From Gemmata sp. (GTDB lineage: Bacteria > Planctomycetota > Planctomycetia > Gemmatales > Gemmataceae), in contig JANWYJ010000027.1 of the NCBI GenBank assembly GCA_025055115.1, forward strand, positions 1 to 47,211: a stretch of 47,211 nt of DNA. The letters are read 5' to 3'. Position 1 is the stretch's first letter. Every line of letters begins with the position of its first letter. The notes beneath the pieces are model-generated. The model made no database searches. It saw nothing but the letters and a program-made list of their open reading frames with translations, and was not told where the DNA came from. The translations under genes were made by a program, and so were the position numbers. This document shows positions 7,107-46,618 of this stretch, piece by piece.

Positions 7107-7339
7107 CCCGTATCCCCTGTTGACTTACAGACGTTGTATTGGGACTCGAATAGTCTTTGGCAATCGGCACTTGGTCGCCAGTGGCCACCCCAGCGCCGTT
7201 GACATCCTCGGTTGGCAAGTCACTGCCGTGCCCCCACCGCGGCCTGCCGCACCGTTTTTTGCAGCCCGGGGGCATACCGTGTTGCAGTGTGCAAGCCCGG
7301 TTCGAAAAGCTGATCCCTATCCGCCGGGATTTCTTGCCA

Positions 7340-7374
7340 TCGAAGCGAGTGGTCGGCAGCAATGGCATTGTGAG
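7340..7374. repeat. 35-base direct repeat, copy 1 (copy 2 at 7413-7447)
   Basis: The shared core is GTCGGCAGCAATGGCAT, with three mismatches in 35 bases and a 73-base offset. Copy 2 overlaps the end of the recognisable recombinase remnant, so the duplication occurred within or next to the decaying gene. Confidence 0.75.
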
Positions 7375-7435
7375 CTTGAGACTTCCGCCGCAAGCTCGTT
7401 CCCACAACCACGTCGAAGCGAGCCGTCGGCAGCAA

Positions 7436-7615
7436 TGGCATCGTGAGTCGGCTGTGTTTCCCATCGACGGGTTGCCACTCTTGGGAAAGTACCTTGAATC
7501 AGTCATTCAACTCACCCCACCGAGCCAAGGCGAGGATTGTCCACCAGGCTGGGTTCGCCCCGCGGAGCAGCTTCTCGACTCTGTTGCGGTCAATGAACCG
7601 ATGCCGCCGGCTCGC
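7436..7615 (-). pseudogene. Tyrosine recombinase (phage-type integrase) remnant
   Basis: Reading the minus strand from 7615, the frame gives RRHRFIDRNRVEKLL, then ANPAWWTILALARWGELND, a TGA stop at 7499-7501, and in the same frame FKVLSQEW followed by PVDGKHSRLTMP. I recognise the spacing of the catalytic-domain start of Gemmata-type site-specific integrases (RF..R...EKLL, WR...ALAR.GGLR.PSEVL.L.W.DVD....R). The position of the catalytic box I arginine after the GGL-like segment is Asn, followed by Asp and the stop, so the protein cannot be active. No N-terminal domain or C-terminal Arg/Tyr boxes can be traced. It lies 441 bases downstream of tRNA-Ser, pointing toward it, as integrases of tRNA-inserted elements often do. 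Its extent is approximate. Confidence 0.6.
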
Positions 7616-8576
7616 ATCGGCCGTCAGGATTTGCACCGCGCCGCAGAGGTTCTCGTCCATCGGTGTGTTCGGACAGGTTGACGATCCCCGCGACGGTGGG
7701 CACCTTCGGTCATTCTCGGAGGTGGTGGAGACACACCCTGAGGCATAGAAGCATGGGTCAGTGGCAGTTCTGACGGCGCAGGTGCCCACGGTCTGGGGTC
7801 AGCTGGTGGCGGTGGCGATGGGGTATCGGCCTTTCAGACTGCTTGGCGGTGTTGATTCAGCGATAAATCCAATCACCAAAAGAACTTTATTGTGCCGCTC
7901 GGACGAGCACCAACATCAGACGAATATTTTTTTGTGTTGTATCCGGCACGGGGACGCGGTTGGGGGGAGTAGCCGGTATTCAGTTGGGGGGAGTCGGTAG
8001 TCAGTGTTCAGGGAAAGACCTTTCCTGGAGACCCTCCGACACATCATCCCCGCGCATGGTGATTGTCATGACCCACTGAGTACACACTCGGTGCCCATCA
8101 GCCCCCGCGCGAAGCGGCTAAGGCCTCGGCAGACAGCGTGGCTGACGGACACCAAGCACGCCTCCGGTCGCTCCATCGTGTGAGCGCCCTCCGACAAGGC
8201 ACCGACCCAGTCTCCGACAGGGACGTTGGATACCCTCTGCGCTGACACGGCGCAGCTGGGCTAACACCGCGCAGCCGACTACCATCCGGACGCATGATAG
8301 CGTTCGCAGCCAGCCACAGGCCAGGGCTATGACTCGCTGACCTCAAGGATAGCCAGGTTGGTGTCAGGCGACGGGCGAGCGCTCGCCATTACCACGCGAT
8401 CAAGGTCCGTGGGGCCAACGGGGTCGAGACCGACGCTGCAATGAGTGCTGGCGTGATCCACGCGATCCACGATATGCCTATACCCGCACAATCTTTCGTG
8501 TCAGGGGGGCCGCTGGGCGGGTATTGTCGCTTCTCGATGGCGCGGTCCCCTCACAATAACCCTTTTGGAGTGTCCT

Positions 8577-9413
8577 ATGACTCTCTTCGCTTCTCTCCCA
8601 CCACTGACCCCGTTCCAGTACAACGTTGTCGACAATGTCTTCTCGTTGACAGTGGCCACGATGGGTGCTGCGGCCATTTTTTTCTTCGCCGCTCGGTCGC
8701 TGGTCGCTCCGAAGTTCCGCCCGGCCCTCATGGTTTCCGGCCTGGTGGTAGCGATCGCTTGCTACCACTACTTCATGATCCGGCTGAGCTGGCAGTCCGC
8801 ATACGCTTACAGCGACGGGGCATTCAACCCCACGGGCAAAGGGTTTAACGATTTTTACCGCTACGCTGACTGGATTCTCACGGTCCCCCTGCTGCTGGTC
8901 GAACTGGTCGCGGTGATGGGGCTGGCCAAGGAAGTCGCCCGCCCGCTGCTGACCAAGCTGGTGATCGCCGCCGCCCTGATGATCGGCCTCGGCTATCCGG
9001 GCGAAGTATCCCAAGACTGGACCACACTGATGATCTGGGGAATGCTGAGCACTCTTCCCTTCCTGTATATTCTGTACGTTCTGTGGGTGGAACTGGGCAA
9101 GTCGCTGGCCACCCAACCCGAGTCGGTGCGATCGCTGGTATCCTTGGCACGGATTCTGATTGTCATCACCTGGATGTTCTATCCGATCGCCTACGCGATT
9201 CGCGGTGATTCCCTGCCGGGGGCCATCCCGGGCATTATCCCCGAGAAGTCCGGGCTGGGGGTGGTCGGCACCCAAGTCGGATATGCGATTGCTGACCTGA
9301 CGGCCAAAGCCGGTTTTGGGATGCTGATCTTCTTCATTGCCCGAATCAAGACCGAAACCCTCTCCCCCGAGGAACGGGCCGAGCAATTGCAGGCCACGGC
9401 GCTGATGACCTGA
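8577..9413 (+). CDS. Proton-pumping rhodopsin of the proteorhodopsin/xanthorhodopsin group
   Basis: 278 residues and seven hydrophobic helices: a retinal-binding light-driven pump of the inner membrane. Helix C reads RYADWILTVPLLLVE, giving the outward proton-pump triad D98 (acceptor), T102 and E109 (donor). Helix B keeps H64, the partner of the acceptor Asp. Helix G has D240 and the Schiff-base lysine K244 (ADLTAK). L106 occupies the spectral-tuning site that favours green light. Aligning helix E on the YILYV segment shared with bacteriorhodopsin puts G155 at the W138 position, where xanthorhodopsin has the glycine that opens a carotenoid-binding fenestration. The ATG at 8577 is preceded by GGAG with 6-base spacing; a TTG four codons earlier lacks a site. 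It is the first gene of a seven-gene operon that supplies its own retinal. Confidence 0.96.
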   Translation: MTLFASLPPLTPFQYNVVDNVFSLTVATMGAAAIFFFAARSLVAPKFRPALMVSGLVVAIACYHYFMIRLSWQSAYAYSDGAFNPTGKGFNDFYRYADWILTVPLLLVELVAVMGLAKEVARPLLTKLVIAAALMIGLGYPGEVSQDWTTLMIWGMLSTLPFLYILYVLWVELGKSLATQPESVRSLVSLARILIVITWMFYPIAYAIRGDSLPGAIPGIIPEKSGLGVVGTQVGYAIADLTAKAGFGMLIFFIARIKTETLSPEERAEQLQATALMT

Positions 9414-9435
9414 TGCGTAGCGGAATGGCCCCGTG

Positions 9436-10263
9436 ATGGCCCAGGTCGTCACTCTGGCGGTGCTGGTCGCGGTGGTTGGGATGCCGCATGGCGGCCTCGA
9501 CCACCGATTCGGACGAGCACTTCTGCGCCCCGCCTTGGGGCCGCAATGGAGCATAGTATTCGTGGCTAGCTACCTAGCGGTGATGATGGTAGTCGTGGCC
9601 GGCTGGTGGTGGCTTCCTGGGCTGACTGTCGCTGGATTTGTGATTCTCTCCGCGGTCCATTTCGGACTGACGGAGGACCGATGCGATGCACCCATCGGCC
9701 TGGTACGCTCGGCCCTCTTCGGCGGAATGGTTGTTTGGGTGCCAGCATTGTTTTGGCCGGCGGAGTTCAGCCGGCTACTGACCTGGGTCATACCGCATAG
9801 CTCGGGGGGGGCGGAAATCATCGTGGCCCCGGCGTTTCAGACGATGCTTGCTGCCATGCTGCCGATCACGCTCGCATGGGCATTCGCCACCTCCCTGTGG
9901 TGCGGAATCCGGGTCATGGTGTTCATCGTTCTTTTCGCTGTCACACCGCCGCTAGTCAGCTTCGCGTTGTACTTCTGCGGTTGGCATTCGGGCATCGAAC
10001 TTTACCGCCTGAGTCGCCAGGCGAACCCACACAATGTGTGGTCCGGTTTGGCCCGGGTTGTCCGTGCAGCCATCCCCCTGGCCAGCCTGGCGGTAGTCAT
10101 GATCGCTGTCGGTGGCTGGGTTGTGGCGCGGGATCGCCCGCTGACGCCGGCGCTGGTTCAAACCATCTTTATCGGGCTGAGTGTGGTGGCCGTACCCCAC
10201 ATGCTCTTGCACTGGATGGCCATCCGACGAAACCTCAATCCGTTCGCAGAGATCGACTCGTGA
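9436..10263 (+). CDS. blh: Beta-carotene 15,15'-dioxygenase, Brp/Blh family
   Basis: 275 residues, a polytopic membrane enzyme that cleaves beta-carotene into two retinals. The family's iron-binding histidine motifs are all present: GMPHGGLDH (H18, H23), VHF (H75), YFCGWHS (H184) and PHMLLH (H255, H259). Start: GTG at 9433 and ATG at 9436 are adjacent codons; ATG is preferred, and neither has a strong ribosome-binding site. It begins 22 bases after the rhodopsin stop, and its TGA overlaps the GTG of crtY. Within this operon its role is to deliver the chromophore to the opsin. The first 15 residues are already hydrophobic, so there is no separate signal peptide. Confidence 0.94.
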   Translation: MAQVVTLAVLVAVVGMPHGGLDHRFGRALLRPALGPQWSIVFVASYLAVMMVVVAGWWWLPGLTVAGFVILSAVHFGLTEDRCDAPIGLVRSALFGGMVVWVPALFWPAEFSRLLTWVIPHSSGGAEIIVAPAFQTMLAAMLPITLAWAFATSLWCGIRVMVFIVLFAVTPPLVSFALYFCGWHSGIELYRLSRQANPHNVWSGLARVVRAAIPLASLAVVMIAVGGWVVARDRPLTPALVQTIFIGLSVVAVPHMLLHWMAIRRNLNPFAEIDS

Positions 10264-11396
10264 CCGACTACGACTACATCCTGGTTGGTGGCGGGTTGCA
10301 AAGTGGCCTGTTGGCGCTGGCCTTGGCGGACCGACGACCGGGAGTGCACGTATGCATGGTGGAGGCCGCCGACCGAATCGGTGGCAACCACACTTGGTCG
10401 TTCCATGCGGCCGATGTTCCACCCGATGTTTCACGTCTGATTGAACCACTCGTGGTGGCCGCGTGGCCGGCCTACGAAGTGCGGTTCCGCGACCATACCC
10501 GTGTCGTTCCGTCGCGGTATGCATCTGTTACTTCGGAACGCTTTGAGGCTGTCGTGCGTCGGACGATCGCCCTCCACGGCTGGGACCTACACCTCGGAAC
10601 GGCCGCCACCGCTGTTACAGCCGAGCGTGTGACGCTCGACTCGGGGGCCACCCTCCACGGGCGATGCATTATCGATGCCCGTGGGCCAAGTGGGGTCACC
10701 GGGGGGTGTGGGTATCAGAAGTTTCTCGGCCTGGAGGTGGAGACGGACTCTCCTTGGCCCGATCAGCTTCCGGTCATGATGGATGCGTCCGTACCCCAAG
10801 ACGACGGCTTCCATTTCGTTTATACGCTGCCGTTGGCGCCCACTCGTGTGTTGGTCGAAGACACCTACTTCGCAGATGGACCTGAACTCGACCGCACGGT
10901 TGCCCGCCAACGGATCGAGGCTTACTTGTGCCAACGGGTCCGTCGGTGGCGGGTGATGCGGGAAGAATCCGGTGTGCTGCCGATGCCGTGGCACACCCCC
11001 TCAGCCCAGCCGCCGGGGGGTCCGTTGGTCAGTGGCTACGCGGGCGGCTGGTTCCACCCCGCCACGGGATATTCATTCCCCGTGGCTTTGCGCTTGGCGC
11101 TGACGATAGCCACCGTGCCGCCGCAGGAGGCTGCCCGGGCAGCGGCTGCTCTGGCGCGGCGGCTGTGCCCACGCTGGTGGTTTGCTCGCTTTCTGAACCG
11201 TCTCCTCTTCCGGCTGGTCCCCCCCCACGCCCGCTGGCAAGTGTTCGCTCGGCTCTATCGGACGCTCCCGCCGGCGGTCTTGGCACGATTTTACGCCCTC
11301 GAGTTCTCCGCCGCCGACGCCGCCCGCATCATAGTGGGCCGTCCACCGCGGATCAACCCGCTCCGCGCGTTTGGCCTCTCCTGGAGTAACCCATGA
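10260..11396 (+). CDS. crtY: Lycopene beta-cyclase, CrtY type
   Basis: 378 residues. It cyclises both ends of lycopene to give beta-carotene. The N-terminus carries the dinucleotide-binding motif DYILVGGGLQSGLLAL (residues 5-20) and the CrtY signature GGNHTWSFH (41-49). GGWFHPATGYSFP toward the C-terminus is also typical. The start is a GTG at 10260 that overlaps the blh stop by 4 bases (GTGA), so the two are probably translationally coupled. The frame is open upstream inside blh, but that extension has no family similarity and was rejected. The 3' end overlaps crtE by 4 bases. Its length matches the family. Confidence 0.93.
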   Translation: MTDYDYILVGGGLQSGLLALALADRRPGVHVCMVEAADRIGGNHTWSFHAADVPPDVSRLIEPLVVAAWPAYEVRFRDHTRVVPSRYASVTSERFEAVVRRTIALHGWDLHLGTAATAVTAERVTLDSGATLHGRCIIDARGPSGVTGGCGYQKFLGLEVETDSPWPDQLPVMMDASVPQDDGFHFVYTLPLAPTRVLVEDTYFADGPELDRTVARQRIEAYLCQRVRRWRVMREESGVLPMPWHTPSAQPPGGPLVSGYAGGWFHPATGYSFPVALRLALTIATVPPQEAARAAAALARRLCPRWWFARFLNRLLFRLVPPHARWQVFARLYRTLPPAVLARFYALEFSAADAARIIVGRPPRINPLRAFGLSWSNP

Positions 11397-12427
11397 TTGT
11401 CACTGAACCTGTGGCAGCGTCGCCGCAGATGCTGGTGCCACCGGCGGAATCGGATACCCTCACGGCACTGGTTCAGTCGGTCCGCCCCGCGCCCGCGGGC
11501 ATCCCCCAATCGCTCTGGGACGCAGCCCTGGTCGGACCGATCGCGGAGTTCCTGTCTCGCCCGGGCAAGCGCTTCCGCGGTCGGTTGGTGGAGTTGTCGT
11601 GGCGCTTGGCCGGCGGTCGTGGTAATCCCCCCCCGGAACTGCCAGTGGTCGTTGAGTTGCTCCACGCCGGTTCACTGATTGTGGACGACATCGAGGATGA
11701 TTCGGTACAGCGCCGCGGCCGGGCTGCGCTCCACCGTCAGGTCGGGCTACCACTGGCTCTCAATGCTGGCAATTGGCTTTACTTTTGGCCGCTTTCCCTC
11801 TTAGGGCGGATGGGCTTTCCGTGTTCTATCGAACGCGAGATGCACCGACGCGCGGTCGATGCTGTCCGGCGCTGCCACGAAGGGCAGGCTCTCGACCTGG
11901 CGGCCCGTCTGGGGGAGCTGCATCCATCCGACATCCCTGCTGTGGCCCACACGATCAGTGCTTGGAAAACCGGCAGCCTGATGGCTCTGGCAGCGGAGCT
12001 GGGGGCGATCGCGGCTAAGGCCGAGCCGGCCATTACGGATGCCCTGGCGCTCTTCGGCGAGCGTCTGGGCGTGGGGCTGCAAATGTACAACGACCTATCG
12101 GAACTGACGGGAGCTGCGGGACCACTCAAATGCACGGAAGATTTGCTCCACGGACGGGTGACGTGGCCTTGGGCCTGGGCCGCCCAACGGCTGCCGGCGG
12201 CTCTCTTCGATGCTCTACAGGCCCGCGGGGCGAAGTTGGCTGCTGGGTCTGGCGATGCCGGTGCCCTGGCACGCGACCTGCGCACGGCCCTTGGCCCGGA
12301 TCCGGCCCAGCCGATCCGAGCGTGGCTGGCGGATGCCGTCGCGGACCTTTCAACCGCGGTTCTCCCCGGACCCGCTCTGGAGGAAGTGCGGGCCGAGATA
12401 GCGCGGCTGGAGGTATCCTATGCCTGA
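11393..12427 (+). CDS. crtE: Geranylgeranyl diphosphate synthase-like polyprenyl synthetase
   Basis: 344 residues, trans-isoprenyl diphosphate synthase fold, expected to supply GGPP to phytoene synthase. The substrate-binding GKRFR (58-62), the first Asp-rich motif DDIED (98-102) and the KTGSL segment near 192 are conserved. The second Asp-rich motif, normally DDxxD, reads NDLSE (233-237), so two of the usual acidic positions differ. Activity may be altered, or this may be a lineage variant. The first 40 residues are an extension of low conservation. The ATG overlaps the crtY stop (ATGA), and the stop overlaps crtI by 8 bases. A second prenyl synthase fused to DUF116 lies at 44816-46618, so this one is probably dedicated to carotenoids. 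Confidence 0.88.
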   Translation: MIVTEPVAASPQMLVPPAESDTLTALVQSVRPAPAGIPQSLWDAALVGPIAEFLSRPGKRFRGRLVELSWRLAGGRGNPPPELPVVVELLHAGSLIVDDIEDDSVQRRGRAALHRQVGLPLALNAGNWLYFWPLSLLGRMGFPCSIEREMHRRAVDAVRRCHEGQALDLAARLGELHPSDIPAVAHTISAWKTGSLMALAAELGAIAAKAEPAITDALALFGERLGVGLQMYNDLSELTGAAGPLKCTEDLLHGRVTWPWAWAAQRLPAALFDALQARGAKLAAGSGDAGALARDLRTALGPDPAQPIRAWLADAVADLSTAVLPGPALEEVRAEIARLEVSYA

Positions 12428-13919
12428 CCTGCGGGCTGCAGTCATCGGCAGTGGCTTTGGCGGGCTGGCCGCCGCATGCCGGTTGCAGGCGCTGGGGGTG
12501 CGCACAACTCTCTTCGAAGCCCGCGACCGACCCGGCGGCCGGGCCTATGTCTATCACGACGCCGGTTTCACGTTCGACGCCGGGCCAACCGTCATCACGG
12601 CCCCCGAGTGCTTGGAGGAAGTGTTTCAAGCGGGCGGTCGTCGCCTCGCGGATTACGTCGAGCTTCTGCCCGTCACCCCACTGTATCGACTCATCTGGCC
12701 GGATGGGGTGCGATTCGACTACGTGCAAGATGAGGCGGCGTTACTCGAACAAATCCGTCGCCTTCACCCCGCCGACGCCGACGGCTACCGCCGCTTCGCC
12801 GCCTATGCCCGGAGGGTCTTCGAGAAGGGTTATGTCGAACTGGGGGCCAAGCCATTCCTACGCTTCTGGGACATGGTGAAGGTGGCCCCGCACCTGGCCC
12901 GATTGCGCGCCGACCGCAGCGTTTACCAAACGGTGGCCCGCTTCGTGACCGACGAGCACCTGCGGCAAGCGTTCAGCTTCCACCCGCTGTTGATCGGTGG
13001 CCATCCGTATGAGACCAGCGCCATTTACACACTCATCCACCACATCGAACGCGCCTGGGGAGTGTTCTTCCCCCGCGGTGGAACCGGTGCATTGGTGAAT
13101 GCCTTCGTCCGGTTGTTGGCCGACCTCGGTGGCGAGTTACGCCTCAATGCCCCGGTCCGCGCGGTGCGCGTCGCGATGCGGGCCAAGGGTCGCAGCGCCA
13201 TTCATCATGTGACCACGGACGCGGCCGGGACCGAGCCATTCGACCTCGTGGTATCGAACGCCGACGTGTATCACACCTATGCAACCTTGTACCGCCAGAC
13301 TCCGCAAGCGGCCCCGACGGTCCGCCGACTCGAGCGAATGGAGTGGTCGATGTCGCTGGTCGTGATCTACTTCGGTACCAATGTCCGCTATCCTGAGTTG
13401 GCTCATCACACCATCCTGTTCGGCCCGCGGTACAAAGGGTTACTCGACGACATTTTTCACGGCGCTCGGCTCCCGGAAGACTTCAGCCTTTATCTTCACG
13501 CCCCCACGGTGACCGATCCATCGCTGGCACCGCCAGGGTGCGAAGCGTTTTATGTCCTCAGCCCGGTGCCGCACCTGGGCCGAGCACCGATCGACTGGGC
13601 GGTGGAAGGGCCGCGCTATGCCGACCGGATTCTGGAGCGTCTGGAAGAACATCTGCCCGGCCTGCGGCGGCATATCGTCACGCGGCGGGTGTTCACACCG
13701 GCGGATTTTGCCACGGTACTCAACGCACGGCATGGTTCGGCGTTCTCGGTCGCTCCCCGGCTGACCCAAAGTGCCTACTTCCGCCTCCCCAATCGCGATC
13801 GCTATATTCCCGGCCTTTATCTCGTCGGTGCCGGCACACACCCCGGGGCGGGTGTACCGGGGGTCGTGAACTCCGCGAAAGCGACGGTGTCTGTCATCGC
13901 CCAGGACTATCAGCTATGA
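12420..13919 (+). CDS. crtI: Phytoene desaturase, CrtI type
   Basis: 499 residues, FAD-dependent, converting phytoene to lycopene. The N-terminal dinucleotide fold is clear (AAVIGSGFGGLAAACRL, then FEARDRPGGRA). The C-terminus carries the bacterial CrtI signature GAGTHPGAGVPGVV near 474-487. Length fits four-step CrtI enzymes of about 490-510 residues. Together with CrtY downstream in the pathway, lycopene is the expected product. The ATG is preceded by GGAGG at 12409-12413 with 6-base spacing, the best ribosome-binding site in the operon. It overlaps crtE by 8 bases and crtB by 4 (ATGA). Specificity is inferred from context, since the CrtI family also includes ketolases and diapophytoene enzymes. 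Confidence 0.94.
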   Translation: MPDLRAAVIGSGFGGLAAACRLQALGVRTTLFEARDRPGGRAYVYHDAGFTFDAGPTVITAPECLEEVFQAGGRRLADYVELLPVTPLYRLIWPDGVRFDYVQDEAALLEQIRRLHPADADGYRRFAAYARRVFEKGYVELGAKPFLRFWDMVKVAPHLARLRADRSVYQTVARFVTDEHLRQAFSFHPLLIGGHPYETSAIYTLIHHIERAWGVFFPRGGTGALVNAFVRLLADLGGELRLNAPVRAVRVAMRAKGRSAIHHVTTDAAGTEPFDLVVSNADVYHTYATLYRQTPQAAPTVRRLERMEWSMSLVVIYFGTNVRYPELAHHTILFGPRYKGLLDDIFHGARLPEDFSLYLHAPTVTDPSLAPPGCEAFYVLSPVPHLGRAPIDWAVEGPRYADRILERLEEHLPGLRRHIVTRRVFTPADFATVLNARHGSAFSVAPRLTQSAYFRLPNRDRYIPGLYLVGAGTHPGAGVPGVVNSAKATVSVIAQDYQL

Positions 13920-14821
13920 ACGAGCGCGAGGTGATCCGCCGCCACTCCAAAAGCTTCGCCCTGGCCGCTCGGCTTCTGCCACCGATCGAGCGCCAGCGGG
14001 CCGAGGCCCTCTATGCCTGGTGCCGGACCGCCGATGACCAGATCGACCAGGCTCTGGAACCGGCGGCTGCGGTGGCAGCGCTGGCCGAACTGCGCCGCGA
14101 AGTCGAGGACGTGTACGCGGGGCGGCCGGTCAGCACTCCAGCCGCCGTTGCCTTGCGGCGAGTTGTGGAAACATGCAGTCTTCCACGCGAATACCCGCTG
14201 GAGATGCTCGCGGGCTTCGCCATGGACGTTGCGGGCACACGTTACGTGACCGAGGCTGACTTGCTCCTGTACTGCTACCGGGTCGCCGGCGTGGTGGGGC
14301 TGATGATGTGCCATGCCCTGGGGGTTACGGAGGAAGAAGCCCTCCCGCACGCGGCCGACCTGGGCATTGCGATGCAATTGACAAACATCGCCCGCGACGT
14401 GGCCGACGACTGGGCACGCGGCCGACTGTACCTGCCGGCCACATGGTTGGCCCGATCGCCTACCCCAGGGGAACCCCTCCAGGATGAACTGCTTGTCCCA
14501 GCCGTGCGGCAGTGCCTGGCTTTGGCCGAACGCTATTACCGATCCGGGGAGCTGGGTTTCCAATACCTTACGCCGCGGTGCCGGTTTTCCGTTCGCGTGG
14601 CGGCGCGGGTGTATCAGGCCATCGGTTGGCAAATCGCCGCCCGCGGATACCGACCTTCCGCCGGACGTGCCGTCCTAAGCCAACCGCGAAAATGGCTGTT
14701 CCTTGTTCGAGCGATGATACAAACGCTGTGGGAGGGGCTGACTCCCAGCCGTCTGGCCCGCCGACGGAGACTTCACCCCCTCCCGGTTTACTCTCCGAAC
14801 TTTGAGGTGCAACATGCCTAA
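13916..14821 (+). CDS. crtB: Phytoene synthase
   Basis: 301 residues, squalene/phytoene synthase family. It joins two GGPP head to head to form phytoene. The first Asp-rich motif is in WCRTADDQID (residues 36-44) and the second in TNIARDVADDWARGRLYLP near 155-173. Both are intact. The N-terminal HSKSFALAARLLPP is characteristic. The ATG overlaps the crtI stop by 4 bases. A much longer frame open upstream lies inside crtI and was rejected. The 3' end overlaps the next small gene by 8 bases. Being surrounded by carotenoid genes favours phytoene over squalene as the product. Confidence 0.94.
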   Translation: MNEREVIRRHSKSFALAARLLPPIERQRAEALYAWCRTADDQIDQALEPAAAVAALAELRREVEDVYAGRPVSTPAAVALRRVVETCSLPREYPLEMLAGFAMDVAGTRYVTEADLLLYCYRVAGVVGLMMCHALGVTEEEALPHAADLGIAMQLTNIARDVADDWARGRLYLPATWLARSPTPGEPLQDELLVPAVRQCLALAERYYRSGELGFQYLTPRCRFSVRVAARVYQAIGWQIAARGYRPSAGRAVLSQPRKWLFLVRAMIQTLWEGLTPSRLARRRRLHPLPVYSPNFEVQHA

Positions 14822-44815: not shown

Positions 44816-46618
44816 TCATTTACCTAGCTCGACGAATTGGACCACCCCCGGTTGCGGGAGTTCCCCTTTCTCCAAAACGCTATCGACCAAGTAGTAGAGC
44901 AACTCGCGGAGTTCGGTGGGTTCGACGTCGTCGGCCAGGGCCTCGGCTTTGGCGCGGAACTTATCCACCAGTTTATCGGCCTTCTCAAAGACCTTGGCGG
45001 CAAAGTACAGCTGTCGGACGCGGGCAACAATTTCTTCCGCCCTTGCACCGGATGCAGCGTGAGCCTGGCCGATCAGGTGGAGCAGTTCCTCCCGCTGCGC
45101 GGGTGTCAAGCCTTCGAGCGCCAGCGCCAGAAGGAGCGTGGGGCGGGCCGCGAGAACATCCTGACCACGCAGGAGTTTGTTGTCGTCGTCGCCGACCCAA
45201 TCCTTGATGTCGTTGAGAATTTGGAAGGCGACGCCGATATGACGGCTGAAATCGGCGAGCATTTTTTCGTAGGCGGTGGCTTCACCCGCCAAGCGCACGC
45301 CCGTATAGAGGGCCGCTTCAAAGGCCGGAGCCGTTTTGAGAGCGTAAATTTTGAGGGCATCGAGGGTAGTCAGCGCTTTGTCGTGGGCTTCCCGCCATAA
45401 CAGTTCCGCCCCCTGACCTTCCGCTAGCTTCACATGGGCTTCGGCGAGTTTGTCGAGAATGTCAGCCGCCACCTCCGCCCCCAGAGCCTGCCGATCGCGG
45501 GACACACACCGGTAGCCCAACCCCAACAGATAATCGCCGACATTGATCGCCGTGGGGACACCGTAGACACGATGCAGCGTTTGCTGCCCGTAGCGGAAGG
45601 CGTCGTCGTCTTCGATGTCGTCGTGAATCAAACTGGCCTTGTGGAAGGTTTCGATGGCGATGGCGGCCCGTTTGACGTGATCCGGCAATTCCCAGCCTGA
45701 CTCGGCGCGTGTCGCGGGGGCGCCGCGGAGAGCATCGTATGTCGCCAGGGTGATGAAGGGCCGGCTGCGTTTGCCCCCACGAGCCAGGAAATCGTAGGCG
45801 ATCTGCTCCTGCAGGCGCAACGGATCGCCTTCGGGAGAACCCGCCCGCGGACGGGGTACCAAACGCGACAGTTCTGGTTCTTCAAACAGTTGGTGGGCCG
45901 CCCGCATCAGGTGCATAAACGTTTTCGTTTTCTGCTCTGGCGGTGGTGTGTGAACACCGATCGACTCGAAGACCCAATCGTTATCAACCGAGGTATTTTT
46001 GCAATTGCTCGACAGTAGCGGCGTGGCCAGACACGGTATACCGGCCAGAAGCACCTTATCGAATGCCTTCTCCAATACATTCAAACACGCAACACCGACA
46101 ATAGCATCGACATGCCCGCTCACGATGATCTTCAGCACAATCGGTGTGCCTTCACTGACCAGTACTTTGTAACCGAGTTGTTCAGCCTTGGTTCGGAAAT
46201 CGCCCACATCACAGGCGCCGCATTTTTTGCAATCCAGTCCGAATTCGTCGTATTCGGCAGGACAGCCTTCGGCGTTCTTCAAGCAATGTGGCAGCAGCAA
46301 TAACCGGCGATGGAAGGGTATGGCCGCAACCTGCTCGCGCCAAAACGCGTTGGTGAGCATCACCATGGTGAAGCCCAGAACCGATTCGCTCAATCCTAGC
46401 GACTTCAGGACGGTTTCGGCCATCGCCCGGGTCGATTCCTTCGTCAGAGGTTTGCTTTTATCCAGTGGCCGAACGAACTGTTCGACCGCCGCACGGATGC
46501 GGTCGCGGATCGCACGGTCTTGCGGAACCTCTTTGAACGCGGCGGAATTGACTTTCGGGGGTTTGGTCGGCGCGTGTTCGCCGGCCGCTTCCTTCTCGAT
46601 CTCAGCAACAGTCGACAC
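44816..46618 (-). CDS. DUF116-polyprenyl diphosphate synthase fusion
   Basis: 600 residues. Residues about 30-225 form a cysteine-rich DUF116 domain (LLLPHCLKNAEGCPAEYDEF, CKKCGACDVGDF, and Cys 178, 196 and 206), probably binding metal or an iron-sulfur cluster. Residues about 265-590 form a trans-isoprenyl diphosphate synthase: GGKRSRP (281-287), first Asp-rich motif DDIED (333-337), and second motif NDIKD (469-473). The first Asp of the second motif is Asn, a common variant. This is probably the housekeeping prenyl chain enzyme (quinone or hopanoid precursors), distinct from the carotenoid-operon CrtE. GTG start at 46618, with a GAAAGG site. The chorismate-lyase-like gene follows on the same strand. 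Confidence 0.9.
   Translation of the reverse strand: MSTVAEIEKEAAGEHAPTKPPKVNSAAFKEVPQDRAIRDRIRAAVEQFVRPLDKSKPLTKESTRAMAETVLKSLGLSESVLGFTMVMLTNAFWREQVAAIPFHRRLLLLPHCLKNAEGCPAEYDEFGLDCKKCGACDVGDFRTKAEQLGYKVLVSEGTPIVLKIIVSGHVDAIVGVACLNVLEKAFDKVLLAGIPCLATPLLSSNCKNTSVDNDWVFESIGVHTPPPEQKTKTFMHLMRAAHQLFEEPELSRLVPRPRAGSPEGDPLRLQEQIAYDFLARGGKRSRPFITLATYDALRGAPATRAESGWELPDHVKRAAIAIETFHKASLIHDDIEDDDAFRYGQQTLHRVYGVPTAINVGDYLLGLGYRCVSRDRQALGAEVAADILDKLAEAHVKLAEGQGAELLWREAHDKALTTLDALKIYALKTAPAFEAALYTGVRLAGEATAYEKMLADFSRHIGVAFQILNDIKDWVGDDDNKLLRGQDVLAARPTLLLALALEGLTPAQREELLHLIGQAHAASGARAEEIVARVRQLYFAAKVFEKADKLVDKFRAKAEALADDVEPTELRELLYYLVDSVLEKGELPQPGVVQFVELGK

Follow-up and report, generated by a model that had tools for sequence, protein, structure and literature searches.

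A planctomycete xanthorhodopsin-clade opsin that keeps the fenestration glycine and carries a methionine in the predicted carotenoid chain slot

Introduction

The closest described relatives of the opsin reported here are rhodopsins of the xanthorhodopsin (XR) clade, among them the published carotenoid binders XR, GR, and Kin4B8. In XR of Salinibacter ruber, the carotenoid chain lies in a slot to which Leu194, Leu197, Ala198, Gly201, and Ile205 belong, among others (PMC3646047, available text). GR binds echinenone or canthaxanthin, and its G178W variant, in which carotenoid is blocked, is described in the available part of the same report as a better pump (PMC9151804). Kin4B8 binds lutein and zeaxanthin; according to the accessible text of PMC12308411, it does not bind beta-carotene, and its S208A substitution lowers zeaxanthin binding to 2% of the wild-type level. 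For the residues at Kin4B8 positions 204, 205, 208, and 209, that text gives Y, A, S, Y in Kin4B8; Y, M, M, A in XR; Y, L, M, L in GR; and Y, M, T, D in KR1.

Surveys infer a carotenoid antenna from the glycine that opens the fenestration (e.g., PMC13043013, as far as its text is available). The Octadecabacter XRs, as described in the available part of PMC3646047, have the equivalent of XR Gly156 together with a changed slot and did not bind salinixanthin, from which its authors conclude that the glycine is insufficient. A Salinivibrio XR has Trp at position 156 and Leu at position 201 (PMC4094778, in part). Five green-light rhodopsins from freshwater planctomycetes were reported in 2019 (PMC6461901, in part). 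Here, we describe a planctomycete opsin in which an open fenestration appears to be combined with a filled carotenoid groove, which is its unusual point.

Materials and methods

The window is the whole stretch of DNA that was analyzed, a Gemmata sp. contig of 47,211 nucleotides. Seventy-nine loci were gathered by matching six peptide patterns derived from the window opsin; Met200 lies within one of the patterns, so this set favors opsins that resemble the window opsin. The alignment holds 127 rows, with 76 from these patterns, 45 from Pfam-model searches, 5 from the PDB, and 1 from the window. Sequences with a stop or of too short a length (L019, L080, L192, L193, L170, L087, and L196) and two identical rows were dropped; exclusion by name applied to L001 and L155, which are the window's own, and to L175 and L202, whose genes are already represented by L078 and L076; and the weak PF01036 matches L096, L097, L194, L195, L208, and L209 have no alignment row. 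The unrooted tree of 55 rows excludes L079, L062, L063, L095, L098, L091, and L197, as well as rows at least 85% identical to a kept row. For site counts, 22 rows were placed by hand outside the XR clade, Ala155 was scored as open, and Cys200 was scored as small. The own-genome search for pigment genes used models for PF04116, PF00067, PF04240, PF00487, CrtR, and CrtO, none of which is specific to CrtW.

Clade membership

The opsin gene and the residues on which the argument turns are as follows.

8577..9413, plus strand: xanthorhodopsin-clade opsin, 278 aa, ATG at 8577 (PF01036, 144.6 bits; PDB match, tree, and fold)
8868..8870, plus strand: D98, primary proton acceptor position (counted from the start at 8577)
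8880-8882, plus strand: T102 (counted from the start at 8577)
8901-8903, plus strand: E109 (counted from the start at 8577)
9039..9041, plus strand: G155, codon GGA, the fenestration glycine, equivalent by alignment to XR Gly156, GR Gly178, and Kin4B8 Gly153
9174..9176, plus strand: M200, codon ATG, in helix F, aligned with XR Gly201 of the carotenoid chain slot (slot as given in the available text of PMC3646047)
9306..9308, plus strand: K244, the retinal Schiff base lysine (residue read in the translation)

The original prediction had read D98, T102, E109, and K244 as fitting an outward proton pump and L106 as the leucine of green-absorbing types, and all five residues are found at those numbers. 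G155 is present as well, as is H64, which we take to occupy the counter-ion histidine position, so that the window opsin has the D-T-E triad, the Schiff base lysine, and the histidine of the XR family. The placement of G155 on XR Gly156 was also borne out, since a HMMER alignment to 3ddl and a MAFFT alignment with XR numbering agree on it.

The best PDB match of the window opsin is XR (3ddl; E = 5.5e-79), followed by psXR, GR, Kin4B8, and TR; the match to green proteorhodopsin (2l6x) is much weaker (E = 1.8e-22). An AlphaFold model (mean pLDDT, 88.8) superposed on TR, psXR, XR, and zeaxanthin-bound Kin4B8 with Z scores of 34.0 to 35.4. By sequence, tree, and fold, the opsin is thus nearer to XR, GR, and Kin4B8 than to proteorhodopsin, and its identity as a green proteorhodopsin is ruled out by Gly155, by its place on the XR side of the tree, and by the PDB match. 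It is near certain, judging from its sequence, to be a new XR-clade opsin with a predicted proton-pumping function. The Foldseek and VIA lists were uninformative as a guide to carotenoid binding, the matches listed there being microbial rhodopsins.

In the tree, the window opsin groups with that of L002 at 100/99 support, within a 6-row set of near relatives (99/95) that lies within a 21-row planctomycete set (100/94). The nearest named relatives, at 66 to 80% identity, come from Fimbriiglobus and Gemmata metagenome-assembled genomes (MAGs), both being genera of the Gemmataceae; further planctomycete opsins lie at ~57 to 65%, and the planctomycete XR-clade opsins L002 to L063, L197, and L198 together span 57 to 85%.

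The pairing of the D-T-E triad with a fenestration glycine is real, and the glycine is beyond chance: position 155 is Gly in 62 of 68 planctomycete XR-clade rows, Phe in 5, and Trp in 1, most of these rows having been gathered by their likeness to the window opsin. The combination is nevertheless not the special feature for which it had been taken, because XR-clade members commonly show both; D-T-L-E plus the glycine occurs in all five best PDB matches (XR, psXR, GR, Kin4B8, and TR). Gly at XR position 156 is also not strictly defining, since Phe or Trp stands there in 23 of 105 XR-clade rows. Given this clade-wide glycine and the planctomycete green rhodopsins reported in 2019, such an opsin is an ordinary find at the level of its headline features.

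The opsin is the sole rhodopsin match in its own genome (4.93 Mb, 98% complete, 100 contigs), a search in which 14 control genomes also gave 0, so that its sensitivity is uncalibrated. A rhodopsin was found in 2 of the 19 genomes of the genus (own genome included), a set that contains 3 genomes of less than 85% completeness. Across the phylum, a sample of 392 genomes, again including its own, gave a match in 18, and in 16 of them it was over the cut-off. The trait is therefore patchy, which within the genus suggests transfer or repeated loss.

Carotenoid groove and ring anchors

XR (Z = 34.2) shares with the window opsin the D-T-L-E motif, the lysine, Gly156, Thr160, Ile205, and Tyr207, whereas its Gly201, Met208, Met211, and Asn191 correspond to Met200, Ala207, Gly210, and Leu190. 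GR (6nwd) and psXR (9wfa), likewise of the same clade and with D-T-L-E and the glycine, differ in having Gly at 201 and Met at 211; GR Thr179, which adjoins the glycine, is Met156 in the window opsin. Kin4B8 (7ytb and 8i2z), also of this clade, shares the equivalents of its Gly153, Tyr204, and Ala205, but its Ser208, Tyr209, and slot glycine are replaced by Gly210, Asp211, and Met200. The Octadecabacter XRs of subgroup II resemble the window opsin, going by the available description in PMC3646047, in being proton pumps with the Gly156 equivalent and a changed slot. In 9jou/9jov, a proteorhodopsin with the fenestration glycine, the residue at the place of Met200 is Ala.

At the five XR slot positions, the window opsin has I193, V196, I197, M200, and I204 (1/5 identical), whereas Kin4B8 and GR are each identical to XR at 3/5, both with Gly at 201. 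By sequence, the helix F chain slot of XR is thus not retained. A count over 13 published XR carotenoid-contact positions points the same way (4 identical in the window opsin, 8 in GR, and 7 in Kin4B8), although it discriminates poorly, since eight relatives with Ala200 score 4 to 5 of 13 and L197, which bears Met200, scores 6. Met200 is found in the window opsin, in L002 (80% identity), and in L197 (85% identity; a single-contig genome from another genus of the same family), while L003, L004, L005, L007, and L198 have Ala. Since L002 and L197 have Met200 too, a sequencing error is ruled out. In the tree, from which L197 is absent, a change from Ala200 to Met200 maps to the branch leading to the window opsin and L002; because the tree is unrooted, its direction follows only from the nearest relatives. 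The available portions of PMC13093654 and PMC11790970 hold nothing for or against Met200.

The ring anchors differ as well. Extending the alignment without gaps places Y206, A207, G210, and D211 at the Kin4B8 positions 204, 205, 208, and 209, so that Ala207 and Gly210 stand where XR has Met208 and Met211, and Gly210 where Kin4B8 has Ser208; the hydrophobic pair found in the keto binders is absent, as is the serine. Asp211 could act as a stand-in anchor, by analogy with the Asp of KR1. A bulky residue at the fenestration itself had been proposed as evidence against an antenna; none is there, and the bulky residue sits instead in the adjoining groove. Given Met200 in the slot, Gly210 in place of Ser208, and the Octadecabacter precedent, the premise that the glycine opening suffices to let a carotenoid antenna touch retinal finds no support in that form.

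Among the planctomycete rows, 55 of 68 combine Gly155 with Ala200. When positions 155 and 200 were scored together in the 105 XR-clade rows, 76 were open/small, 6 open/large (the window opsin, L002, L197, L030, L037, and L074), 20 bulky/large, and 3 bulky/small. The association is strong as a raw count (Fisher P = 2e-13, kinship ignored), but it is not demonstrable after correction for kinship, because the independent pairs are too few: of the four pairs, 1 to 2 agreed and none ran the other way (P = 0.5 to 1), and this test needs at least 6 differing pairs before P = 0.05 comes within reach, whatever the real relation. Phe155 does not demand a bulky residue at 200, since all 12 PR-type rows with Phe155 have Ala200. 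The apparent covariation is accordingly a lead from aligned sequences rather than proof.

Retinal operon and other pigment genes

The opsin gene is followed by five genes on the same strand.

9433..10263, plus strand: blh, beta-carotene 15,15'-dioxygenase, retinal-making (TIGR03753, 150.1 against a cut-off of 95.25; PF15461, 148.4 bits)
10260..11396, plus strand: crtY, lycopene beta-cyclase, GTG start inferred (TIGR01789, 311.8 bits against a cut-off of 215.2)
11393..12427, plus strand: crtE-type polyprenyl (GGPP) synthase (PF00348, 126.7 bits; NCBIfam models all below cut-off)
12420..13919, plus strand: crtI, phytoene desaturase family (TIGR02734, 648 bits against a cut-off of 238.1)
13916..14821, plus strand: crtB-type phytoene synthase, ATG start inferred (PF00494, 241.6 bits; NCBIfam CrtB models below cut-offs)

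The order is opsin-blh-crtY-crtE-crtI-crtB, with the frames overlapping by a few bases from blh onward. Going by the known roles of these families, the operon is predicted to make beta-carotene and split it to retinal. This C40 product is the pigment that Kin4B8 does not bind (PMC12308411, in part). That it would make carotenoids with no hydroxylase or ketolase of its own had been foreseen, and the family matches (blh, crtY, crtE, crtI, and crtB only) agree; neither kind of gene was found in the operon within the window. A scan for promoters and terminators around the operon gave nothing above shuffles.

The full set of six genes stands in this order at 44 of the 66 planctomycete loci examined, with L006 and L211 representing the same place, and no locus has them out of order. 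The remaining 22 are ordered as far as present, and 21 of these end at most 500 bases past the last gene found; in L003, 1,510 bases follow crtE without a crtI match. An extra gene of ~176 aa lies between crtE and crtI in L004, L005, L006, and L007. We considered whether it might be a hidden hydroxylase and rejected this, as the copy in L211 (the L006 locus; positions 7122-7649), the only one tested, is PsiE-like (PF06146, 34.9 bits). The window, L002, and L210 have no room for the PsiE-like gene, since crtE directly adjoins crtI in them. A hydroxylase hidden in the crtI-crtB gap of L002 was likewise rejected, as the sequence there looks by eye like an aldehyde dehydrogenase fragment.

In the opsin's own genome, the CrtZ-type (PF04116), P450 (PF00067), and CruF-type (PF04240) models each gave 0 matches, compared with matches in 2, 7, and 3 of the 14 control genomes, respectively. 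PF00487 gave five matches at four places, three of which are acyl-desaturase-like by eye (L151 and L152 also match DesA, below cut-off; L150 was judged by eye only), and the best CrtR match, L149, scored 26.7 bits against a cut-off of 475. The genome search that the original prediction had called for gave no CrtZ-type match; for crtO it returned L159, which matches CrtO over nearly its full length at 312.4 bits, far below the cut-off of 1000. L159 may conceivably be a ketolase; the CrtO-like oxidoreductase group includes other functions. The caution that any antenna would have to come from elsewhere or be unusual stands. Among relatives, PF04116 matches occur in 14/25, 2/5, and 5/11 genomes of three sets, and the proteins inspected (L109 to L112 and L114 to L117) are sterol-desaturase-like or undecided; L105 yielded no frame that could be read.

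On contig C93 of this genome (L224:6122-11401), two CrtI-family genes precede, in a row, an acyltransferase gene and a gene for a family 2 glycosyltransferase. This cluster is likely a second carotenoid pathway in the same cell, with a predicted C30, glycosylated product; it fits the production of C30 carotenoids via squalene that has been reported for a planctomycete (PMC12078418, in part).

Interpretation

We favor, at a probability of about 65%, the reading that this Gemmataceae-type XR-clade opsin would pump protons outward in green light on retinal alone, with no antenna bound as in XR or Kin4B8. The adjoining blh-crtY-crtE-crtI-crtB genes would supply beta-carotene and split it to retinal; the fenestration glycine would be an inheritance from the XR clade; and the carotenoid groove would have been filled in this opsin's branch by the change from Ala200 to Met200, in the direction that the nearest relatives suggest. 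With the groove apparently filled and both the keto-type and the Ser208-type ring anchors absent, the opsin most likely works without such an antenna. The lack of a classic antenna is the likelier state, about two in three, because Met200 has a published precedent, the ring anchors are weak, and there is no sure source of xanthophyll. Against this stand G155 and the conserved Tyr206 (Kin4B8 Tyr204), both of which are kept, and the chance that Met200, being flexible, lies along the groove and leaves it passable.

It is possible, and would overlap with the favored reading, that the glycine is a roleless leftover, or that its only use is in the retinal pocket, in contact with lipid, or in the packing of oligomers. 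One planctomycete subclade has a bulky residue at position 200 in all five of its tree rows and Phe155 in two of the five, as if the groove had been filled before the glycine was lost, and the better pumping reported for carotenoid-blocked GR G178W (PMC9151804, in part) also fits. On the other hand, G155 is kept in 3/3 Met200 opsins of the window's group, although three are too few to speak for either neglect or selection.

We think it unlikely that there is a working antenna built on a 3-hydroxylated xanthophyll such as lutein or zeaxanthin, taken up from algae or neighbors, with its ring in the G155 opening, its chain passing a flexed Met200, and Asp211 as anchor. Such a pigment would need an outside source, as no CrtZ-type or P450 hydroxylase was found in the genome, and the retention of G155 and Tyr206 and the polar Asp211 where KR1 has Asp (PMC12308411, in part; gapless extension of the alignment) are consistent with it. 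Met200, however, occupies the chain slot, where XR, GR, and Kin4B8 have Gly and 9jou/9jov have Ala, and Gly210 stands at the Ser208 that Kin4B8 requires, as the available text of PMC12308411 has it.

An unusual endogenous antenna, either an acyclic C30 carotenoid glycoside from the second cluster or a ketocarotenoid produced by a divergent CrtO, is improbable: the C93 genes, the planctomycete precedent for C30 carotenoids via squalene (PMC12078418, in part), and the nearly full-length CrtO match of L159 speak for it, but that match is far under the cut-off in an oxidoreductase group with other functions, an acyclic C30 pigment lacks the ring that would occupy the opening, and the known groove is obstructed by Met200. 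Just as improbable would be a fenestration uncoupled from the groove, in which selection keeps the opening while the groove stays closed and G155 admits a lipid chain, a short or C30 pigment end-on, or a carotenoid in a new orientation; if true, the xanthorhodopsin fenestration would have a third mode of use.

Should the favored reading hold and the opsin simply have no antenna, the finding is an ordinary one. The window opsin, L002, and L197 are nonetheless natural cases in which the glycine is kept and a bulky residue stands in the carotenoid chain slot, and these Gly155/Met200 opsins bear on the reliability of the glycine rule and on whether the many Gly-bearing planctomycete rhodopsins do carry antennas.

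Additional observations

An antisense open frame of 358 aa (8478-9554, minus strand) spans the opsin gene; it has no Pfam match and is most likely an effect of high G+C. Elsewhere in the window, positions 44816-46618 (minus strand) encode a 600-aa fusion of DUF116 (PF01976) and polyprenyl synthetase (PF00348), a pairing of which we know no other case. Finally, the opsins of L187, L182, and L188, from the phylum of a Bdellovibrionales MAG (L078), have Ala for Gly at the fenestration, and those of L187 and L182 are very similar to Kin4B8 in helix F.
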